Below are positions 42,535-45,929 of a stretch of DNA of 64,000 nt, one piece after another. The notes beneath the pieces were generated by a model that was not told the origin of the DNA, did no database searches, and was given only the letters and a program-made list of their open reading frames with translations. The translations under genes and the position numbers were made by a program. This stretch comes from Aphelenchoides besseyi (Eukaryota > Nematoda > Chromadorea > Rhabditida > Aphelenchoididae): the NCBI GenBank assembly GCA_024699855.1, contig JAMPIQ010000003.1, forward strand, positions 186,001 through 250,000, read 5' to 3'. Every line of letters begins with the position of its first letter. The stretch's first letter is position 1.

Positions 42535-43052
42535 GGGTCTTTTGCTGTAGTCCCCCCCCCCTTTCCTTCCCTTTCCCCCCTCCCCCCTTCCTTCGCAAAA
42601 GGCGAACACTTTTACGAACGTCAAGATATCTTAACCGGTTATATTTTGTATTTGTTTTAATTTTGGTTTTCAAAATGGAGCAACTTCGTAATTGGACGTT
42701 GAAAAACGTGTACGAAGCGATTAGTAAACCAGATGAGCAGTTCTTGGAATTCTTGGGCGAACTCAACGTAATGAAATGGAATCCGAAATGTTCGAGAGAC
42801 GAAAGACACAAGATGCAAATGTGAATGGCGCGTCGAGCACGAGATCGGCGATGACGAAGACGACGAAAATGATGGCGATGCTGTGGAACGCGATATACGA
42901 TTGCGCGAGGAGTTATAGATACAAATTAAATACAATTGTTGTTATTGCTGAAAAATAAACTTGTTGTTAACTTAAAAGAAGAACTCCTGAGGGGGTAGGG
43001 CTACAGCAAAACATGCAACTGAGGGGGCGGGGGGGCCTACAGCAAAAGACCC
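42535..43052 (+). mobile_element. 518-base GC-rich non-autonomous element (MITE), Merlin/hAT-like TSD
   Basis: The ends GGGTCTTTTGCTGTAG and CTACAGCAAAAGACCC are inverted repeats, each followed inward by runs of C or G. Adjacent 8-base direct repeats (GAACTTCT at 42527-42534 and AAACTTCT at 43053-43060, one mismatch) look like a target duplication. Inside, an ATG at 42675 opens a 49-codon frame (RNWTLKNVYEAISKPDEQFL), which could be the N-terminal remnant of an ISXO2/Merlin-type transposase. That assignment is tentative. Confidence 0.65.
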
Positions 43053-43336: not shown

Positions 43337-44365
43337 TTAAAACGGTCCGGGAGGATTCTTTTTCAGATAAGACAACAGTTGCGGGAGCCCATAGATTCGG
43401 TCATTGTGAGCTTTGAGTGTTGGATAGGCAGCCATAGTGGTGGGATCGAAGTTGAAGAATGTTTTGATAGTTCCTGAAAACATAAATGTATTTTTTGAGG
43501 TGTTTGAGTGACTTGCCAGCGACGTAGAAATCAACCCACGAAACACCACTTTTGACGAAGAATCCCGATCCAACATCGTCCAAAATTTTCTCCAATTTTG
43601 GCCCGTAGCTTTGGATTGCGGGCAAGAAGTCTTCGGTGTGGAGTTTGTTCTAAAAAAGTTGACTGAGCACTTTCAATCTCTCACTTTATCTCCCGGAAAA
43701 ACGCCGATGGTCACTTGCATCCATTTGGTTGTCTTTTCGACCAACTCGTGAAACAGCTCGGCGTGTTGATCCAACTGTGCAGCTTCAATTTCGTTCTTTC
43801 CGTTCAAATTGAATTTGTGTGCTAAATAGCGATAGATGGACATGCTCTGTGTGAGGTTTTGGTTTCCAATTTGCAGCAAAGGCACTTGTCCGTTCGGATA
43901 TGCTAAAAGACGTTTAGTTATTCGAAGTGATAACTCACTCGACTTGATCTTCGGCCATTGAGTTTTCGGTTCGATTTGAAAGTCGGTGAACGGAATCTCT
44001 CTGTACGTGAACATCATTCTCGCCGGTTCTCCACGAAATCGAAATTGGAAGTAGTGGAGAACGTATTTCGGAAGTTTCCTGCATACTCACGATAAAGATT
44101 AGTGATTCGAGACTTACGGTTTCACTGGGGTTCTTTTCTGCGGCTTCTTTTTTGGCTTTCTTCTCGGGTGTTTTCGGGCTTTGTGCTTGGCAGTCGAAGG
44201 CGTACAGTATCCACAAGTACGTTGACAGTTGGCCTCCAAAGTTGCGGCCAAATTCACTGACTTACAGTATGGTTGTGTTCGACTACAAGTATCCAGTTTG
44301 TCTCTACACTGCGACTGAACGATATAAACGCTCAGAAAGAAGACAGTGGGTTTGAGCCAAAACAT
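43337..44365 (-). CDS. Secreted ShKT domain-glutathione S-transferase fusion
   Basis: The ATG at 44365 encodes a signal peptide (FWLKPTVFFLSVYIVQS), then a six-Cys ShKT domain (CRDKLDTCSRTQPYC to CQRTCGYC, about residues 20-57) and a Lys/Arg/Pro-rich linker. The exon ends AAA-CC at a GTAAGT donor (44118). After a short intron the next exon completes the codon and continues in frame as KLPKYVLHYFQFRFRGEPAR, the start of a sigma-type GST with the catalytic Tyr. The N-domain has YPNGQVPLLQIGNQ and TQSMSIYRYLA (glutathione site). The helical C-domain includes KLEKILDDVGSGFFVKSGVS and WVDFYVA and ends LKKNPPGPF at 43337. One intron has a GC donor (near 43517). The protein is about 285 residues, with no disruption. 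A secreted GST joined to ShKT is unusual; alternative promoters making a plain GST cannot be excluded. Confidence 0.82.
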
Positions 44366-45396: not shown

Positions 45397-45929
45397 ATGG
45401 GCCTCACTCGTGAACAAGTGCGATTCTGCTTTTCAACGAATATCGTCTCCGTCACTCGCCCGCCAAAGCCGCCGCCATGACCAACTTGGCACATGGAGCG
45501 CGAACAACCACCGAGAGGACGGCATGTCGATGGTTCAAAAAGTTCGACGATGGACTTGAGGATTTGGCCGATCAACCACGAACAGGACGTCCGCCAACGG
45601 TTCATCAAGCGACTATTCTCGACACTGTGGCCAATCGACCTGCGCAATCAACTCGCGAATTAACTATTGGTTGTTCTGCAATGGCCGTATGGAGGACATT
45701 GAGACGAATGGGCAAACAATTCTTTATGTCTACAATCACTAATGGTTACTCTCGTCTAGGTCTCTGGCATCGACGAGGACGCCGATTCAACGACGTCGAT
45801 CATGTCCGCCGGCCCCTGAACTCGTTCTTCGCCTCCCGTCATCACTCATTCTACTCGCGCGGAATCACCCAATTGCCTGAACGGTGGCGGCGAACTATCA
45901 ACGCACACGGTGACTATTTTTTGTCCTGA
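45397..45929 (+). pseudogene. Mariner transposase deletion derivative
   Basis: MGLTREQVRFCF starts at 45397. After a frameshift near 45430 the frame reads LRHSPAKAAAMTNLAHG, CRWFKKFDDGLEDLADQPRT, GRPPTV and RRMGK, the helix-turn-helix (HTH_48) half of a mariner transposase. The text then jumps to the C-terminal signature (FASRHHSFYSRGITQLPERW, ending GDYFLS with TGA at 45927-45929). The whole catalytic core between is missing. It is an internally deleted copy and cannot be functional. Confidence 0.75.

Follow-up and report, generated by a model that had tools for sequence, protein, structure and literature searches.

GSTs are usually treated as intracellular enzymes. The secreted GST of Onchocerca has been called exceptional in the GST superfamily, and in the available part of its description this sigma-class GST1 carries, besides its signal peptide, an N-terminal extension of 25 aa that is said not to be found in other GSTs (PMC6939172). 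ShKT domains are known from another set of nematode enzymes, the haem peroxidases MLT-7 and SKPO, where the domain is N-terminal (PMC13273113), and tyrosinases. In Bursaphelenchus xylophilus, the partners of ShK in 96 transcripts are given as metallopeptidases, haem peroxidase, tyrosinase, EGF, CUB "and others" (PMC10857297). The portions of these reports available to us (PMC13273113, PMC6409789, PMC10857297) do not name a GST as a partner of ShKT.

The DNA analyzed here (the window) is a 64,000-nucleotide stretch of a contig of Aphelenchoides besseyi, and it holds a minus-strand gene that joins these two themes. Like Onchocerca GST1 (OvGST1a/b, OoGST1), its product is a sigma-class enzyme with an N-terminal extension ahead of the GST, and where Onchocerca GST1 has a signal peptide it has a hydrophobic start that resembles one; the extension in Onchocerca is 25 aa long and is drawn as disordered, whereas here it consists of a six-Cys ShKT domain and a 33-aa linker. 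In the text available on Onchocerca GST1, six N-glycosylation sites are predicted, against one sequon in the window protein (PMC6939172). With the nematode cytosolic sigma GSTs of known structure (4q5f from Ascaris, 2on7 from Necator, 1zl9 from C. elegans) the window protein shares the whole GST domain, the catalytic Tyr and the fold, but those proteins begin at the GST and ours has about 86 residues in front of it. The likeness to MLT-7, SKPO and the tyrosinases would be that of a secreted enzyme of oxidative chemistry bearing an ShKT domain, as far as the accessible parts of those papers describe them (PMC13273113, PMC6409789, PMC10857297); the enzyme class is different. An earlier note on this DNA had proposed that a secreted, ShKT-tethered GST would be a new architecture. 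We found no description of an ShKT-GST fusion in the open-licence PMC literature, so that the putative ShKT tether does stand as undescribed; secreted sigma GSTs as such, on the other hand, are already known from Onchocerca, going by what is available of that report (PMC6939172). As far as searched, then, the protein is a combination of known parts that lacks a published description, although the architecture is visible in databases.

In our gene model the gene is intact and in frame, and its 876-nt coding sequence, from the ATG at 44365 to the stop codon ending at 43337, specifies a 291-aa protein (Table 1). The coordinates and the anatomy agree with those in the earlier note, which had recognized a signal peptide, a six-Cys ShKT domain and a basic linker on one exon. 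It had also read this exon as ending at a GTAAGT donor and the next as completing a split codon and starting the GST, and the gene model bears this out: the exon 1/exon 2 junction is in phase 2, the codon is split CC/G, and the reading resumes in exon 2 at KLPKYVLHYFQFRFRGEPAR, which is the usual start of a GST. The four introns measure 39, 36, 35 and 43 nt; three are GT-AG and intron 4 is GC-AG. An AATAAA lies 5 nt beyond the stop codon. Upstream of the ATG is the sequence TTTCCAG, which could be a trans-splice acceptor. Around the gene we noted a C-rich low-complexity tract about 750 bp past its 3' end (window 42551-42593) and, next to the gene on the plus strand at window 45414-45929, an open frame that matches the Mos1-type (mariner) transposase HTH domain with 27.8 bits against a cut-off of 24.1.

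Table 1. Features of the ShKT-GST gene (positions in the window) and its paralogues (positions on the genome contigs C2 and C3)
Feature	Position	Strand	Basis
Whole ShKT-GST coding region, 5 exons, 291 aa	43337..44365	minus	Gene model, Pfam, deposited P0001
Exon 1, with signal-peptide-like start, ShKT domain and basic linker; GTAAGT donor, phase 2	44118..44365	minus	Gene model
Signal-peptide-like segment, residues 1-19 (MFWLKPTVFFLSVYIVQSQ)	44309..44365	minus	Hydropathy, best 8-residue mean 2.52
ShKT domain, Cys20 to Cys54, six Cys	44204..44308	minus	Pfam 22.8 bits; genome match C3:230204-230311 = window 44204-44311
Basic, Pro-rich linker, 33 residues, the final ones on exon 2	44118..44203	minus	Composition: 15 Lys/Arg, 0 Asp/Glu
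Intron 1, 39 nt, phase 2, GT-AG	44079..44117	minus	Gene model
Exon 2: linker end, GST start, catalytic Tyr92	43939..44078	minus	Gene model, structure alignment
Exon 3: remainder of GST N-domain (Gln148-Ser149 motif), beginning of C-domain	43685..43902	minus	Gene model
Exon 4: GST C-domain with SWVDFYVA; GC donor at end	43517..43649	minus	Gene model; conservation in relatives
Exon 5: GST end and stop	43337..43473	minus	Gene model
L054, ShKT-GST paralogue	C2:435495-436505		Genome matches
L055, ShKT-GST paralogue	C3, 3812.4-3811.3 kb	minus	Genome matches
L056, ShKT-GST paralogue	C3, 8823.3-8822.4 kb	minus	Genome matches

The gene is already represented in the databases, by a "hypothetical protein" of A. 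besseyi (P0001, M3Y96_00971600). P0001 aligns over its full length with the window protein except that it lacks ten residues (VSWVDFYVAG) at the exon 4/5 boundary, having been modeled with a different donor for intron 4 (window 43516-43474). Since relatives retain SWVDFYVA in the alignment, we prefer the GC-donor model of this intron to the deposited one.

Are the ShKT domain and the GST really parts of one protein? Three other A. besseyi loci (L054, L055 and L056) have the same order of parts, and at all four fusion loci of this genome a phase-2 intron separates the linker from the GST. The earlier note had named a separate start codon used only for the GST as an observation that would count against fusion. 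None is visible in exon 2, and the stretch from the preceding stop to the first GST strand contains an in-frame ATG at 0/4 fusion loci versus 10/13 other GST loci; of the three exceptions among the latter, two lack one, and at the third, L060, the script did not find the motif but inspection likewise shows no ATG. An ShKT match within 300 bp upstream of a GST on the same strand occurs four times against 0.005 expected, an estimate based on 79 ShKT matches in 47.4 Mb and 19 GST loci (one fragment and one small-contig duplicate included) that assumes an even spread of ShKT genes, which in fact cluster. The other possibility is that gene prediction has joined an adjacent ShKT-peptide gene to a cytosolic GST gene. 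The introns are indeed very short, and the deposited models are predictions, of which P0001 itself deviates at intron 4; but a layout and junction phase common to four diverged loci, relatives in three species and a GST with no in-frame ATG of its own make this extremely improbable, and we rejected it on the paralogues, the relatives and the start codons. These same features uphold the in-frame fusion behind a signal-peptide-like segment that the earlier note had proposed, and from the sequence ShKT and GST almost certainly form one fused protein. A 33-nt "intron" that the aligner proposed in the L055 linker was dropped; the frame is open across it and a deposited relative, P0013, keeps the stretch.

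Retention of intron 1 would bring in an in-frame stop and, by translation of the gene model, give an 83-aa product, as expected of the transcripts ending after the ShKT exon that the earlier note had counted against fusion. It raises the alternative that the gene has two products, a secreted ShKT peptide from the unspliced and the fusion from the spliced transcript. That the retained intron, of 39 nt only, runs straight into a stop is in line with this. However, wherever a GTAAG or GTGAG donor stands at a phase-2 junction such a stop arises automatically, and so it is no sign of use, and the sequence scan found no AATAAA in intron 1 or in exon 2. Two products are thus very unlikely, and the fusion remains our reading of the gene.

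In the spliced protein Pfam ShK (PF01549) matches residues 19-54 with 22.8 bits, a score that barely exceeds the cut-off of 20.9. The six Cys are invariant across the nine rows of alignment A2, and the complete six-Cys pattern is present in 12 of 14 fusion rows. By hydropathy only, a hydrophobic stretch precedes the first ShKT Cys in 12/12 rows measured (8-residue mean 2.5-4.0, the window protein having the lowest). According to the part of PMC4974336 available to us, a Lys-Tyr dyad is required for potassium-channel block by ShK-type peptides. A Lys-Tyr or Lys-Phe pair is absent from all 12 complete ShKT domains, and a channel-toxin role is for lack of the Lys-Tyr pair not favored.

The linker that follows is basic in most of the family: in 11 of 12 fusion rows it has 20-45 residues, 10-22 of them Lys/Arg. 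The linker of P0015 from A. bicaudatus, in contrast, has 87 residues and is Pro-rich and uncharged, with no Lys/Arg at all. It is hence the spacer that is conserved and not its charge, and tethering by charge cannot be general. The basic linkers also suggest an alternative in which the protein is a proprotein, cleaved within the linker so that the ShKT peptide and the secreted GST are released separately. Dibasic Lys/Arg-Arg sites do occur in 7/12 complete linkers, two of them in that of the window protein, but the furin-type Arg-X-Lys/Arg-Arg is absent from 11/12, and P0002, P0003, P0006 and P0015 have no dibasic site, the last having no basic residue to cleave at. We consider cleavage unlikely and continue to read the protein as one secreted fusion.

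The GST half is complete. Pfam finds GST_N at residues 89-157 (30.5 bits; cut-off 20.9) and GST_C_3 at residues 202-285 (45.3 bits; cut-off 21.6). Among solved structures, those of nematode GSTs come closest, with 4q5f (1.2e-32) as the best match and 2on7 (6.8e-31), 1zl9 and 1tw9 also among the nearest; haematopoietic prostaglandin D synthases rank after them. We take these nearest entries to be sigma-type; one entry, 2ws2, is titled nu-class. In sigma-class GSTs the catalytic residue is a Tyr that closes the first strand, and a Gln-Ser pair forms the glutathione motif. Tyr92 of the window protein aligns with Tyr8 of 2on7 (chain position 8), and Gln148-Ser149 is found as well, so that domains, Tyr92, Gln148-Ser149 and nearest relatives of nematode sigma type all mark a sigma-class enzyme. 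The sole N-glycosylation sequon, at Asn145, adjoins the Gln-Ser motif. For the structure of the family we used the AlphaFold model of a relative, P0002 (18 sequences; 346 aa), whose 51-aa start is probably wrong. Its mean pLDDT is 78.7; most of the GST lies above 90, whereas the ShKT region is of low confidence at about 50-60. Foldseek places the model on the Ascaris GST 4q5f with a TM-score of 0.94 by target length. Judging from these residues and domains, the window protein is probably an active GST. In one family member, P0003, which comes from another A. besseyi assembly, His stands in for the catalytic Tyr and there are further changes nearby (LHHFQSGSCGEAAR), so that it may be inactive or mis-sequenced. 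In view of this His, activity need not be a property of every member, and the Asn145 sequon so close to the glutathione motif also counts against it.

Thirteen deposited proteins have an N-terminal ShKT domain followed by a GST, which is the combination the earlier note had suggested seeking in one nematode protein. P0001-P0009 come from A. besseyi or A. fujianensis, P0013 from A. besseyi, P0014 from A. fujianensis, and P0011 and P0015 from A. bicaudatus. For P0004, PF01549 and GST domains both appear in the precomputed annotation. As annotated, the ShKT domain is complete in 11 of the 13 (10 of the 12 measured, plus P0001, whose ShKT is the window's own); the final three Cys are missing from P0011 and the final one from P0014. 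In set A3, made up of 12 fusions and 6 plain GSTs, ShK was matched in 12 of the 18 members. Two of the fusions, P0002 and P0003, are automatically named "Hematopoietic prostaglandin D synthase". P0011 is annotated as a single protein with a partial ShKT, a GST and a C-terminal PF10853; the PF10853 tail may be an adjacent gene merged by prediction.

A maximum-likelihood tree, rooted at the midpoint only, was built from 31 GST domains, 14 of fusion rows and 17 others (P0011 was trimmed, L062 is partial, and L061 and P0020 were left out). A single branch sets all 14 fusion rows apart from the rest; its support of 89/88 is below the usual 95/80 mark, and it recurs in 90% of 200 bootstrap trees. 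The plain GSTs nearest to them, P0010, P0016 and P0017, are from the same genus and share with them a 17-row branch supported at 99/96; unlike the fusions they have only 205-215 aa and no ShKT or signal peptide. Both A. besseyi and A. fujianensis are represented in each of three fusion subgroups, and A. bicaudatus in two. Because the fusion rows group together, a single fusion in an Aphelenchoides ancestor before the species split, with duplication afterwards, would be the simplest account. GST-domain Cys were also compared, the fusions averaging 0.43 and the other GSTs 1.29 (p 0.006 by a plain rank test on rows that are related). Given this kinship, and since the sister GSTs without ShKT have 1, 0 and 0 Cys, the depletion is not independent evidence, and we dropped it as a sign of secretion.

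Outside Aphelenchoides, no ShKT-GST was found in protein searches that required shared 5-residue words, two of them at a 1e-20 cut-off, and no Bursaphelenchus GST was among the matches listed. The weakest of these searches (cut-off 1e-20) recovered eight fusions plus a fragment of 125 aa, while several of the rows used as its query went unrecovered. PF01549 is likewise absent from the annotated Pfam lists of P0021-P0032.

Other GST genes of the A. besseyi genome have unusual starts too: the three exceptions named above look like an extended GST of another sort. The sigma GST of L060 (G000:C3:6458300-6460800, minus strand) has no ATG at the GST start and has a Ser/Thr-rich open reading upstream that begins MLLQSIILFSILFVDA, which is signal-peptide-like. 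The second gene of L057, at about 7374.0-7374.8 kb of G000:C3 (plus strand), is also a sigma GST with no start ATG and a Ser/Thr-rich open reading upstream. The two pair in the tree at 100/99, and extended or secreted GSTs of a second type, one that lacks ShKT, may be what they represent. The third case is the minus-strand gene of L057 (G000:C3, about 7375.7-7375.0 kb), where the GST exon likewise shows no in-frame ATG ahead of its first strand and no N-terminal extension was identified.

What might such a protein do? The reading that on balance seems best is that of a secreted sigma-class GST held near the worm surface or its secretions by the ShKT domain and linker. Its parts differ in strength. 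That the protein is secreted is very probable from its sequence: the putative signal peptide would direct it to the secretory pathway, where the ShKT domain, with its six conserved Cys, would fold as a small disulfide-bonded module, joined by the flexible, mostly basic linker seen in the sequence to the complete GST. That ShKT and linker act as a tether is a possibility to which we give a little under even chances, and one that we infer by analogy with the ShKT-bearing peroxidases and tyrosinases of nematodes. If they do, ShKT and polycationic linker would retain the enzyme, as a dimer, on extracellular material that is acidic or rich in glycans, candidate sites being the worm cuticle or surface coat, the gland or gut lining, and plant or fungal cell walls. 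There the GST would conjugate or isomerize reactive electrophiles and lipid peroxides, using extracellular glutathione. Fusion would have taken place once, in the Aphelenchoides ancestor, and the later duplications would have made the family.

The same chemistry could instead be carried out free in the host, by a gland-secreted enzyme that lowers the defence oxylipins, isothiocyanates or peroxides of plants or fungi and is not tethered to the worm. The fusion is also present in A. fujianensis and A. bicaudatus, which are not known as specialised rice parasites, and this counts against such a role, which we regard as rather unlikely. Expansion of the ShKT-GST family in Aphelenchoides speaks for it, as do, in the parts of the reports available, the synthesis of prostaglandin D2 by the secreted Onchocerca sigma GST (PMC6939172) and the response of Bursaphelenchus ShK-domain genes to hydrogen peroxide (PMC10857297).

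Returning to the tethered enzyme, we tentatively propose, as an idea less likely than not, a genus-level Aphelenchoides enzyme family descended from one fusion, in which the ShKT tag and spacer anchor an extracellular GST and host electrophiles and oxylipins are detoxified or remodelled in the apoplast or at the worm surface before they reach the worm's cells. If this is true, GSTs would join peroxidases and tyrosinases as redox enzymes addressed by ShKT. The fusions would also be a second, independently built type of secreted GST, this one with a folded tag, and would illustrate by what route detoxification can be relocated to the cell exterior in a lineage of nematodes. They would offer a clean test of a non-toxin function of ShKT. 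Finally, the name "Hematopoietic prostaglandin D synthase" that P0002 and P0003 received automatically, and others like it, would be seen to conceal an enzyme that is predicted to be secreted.
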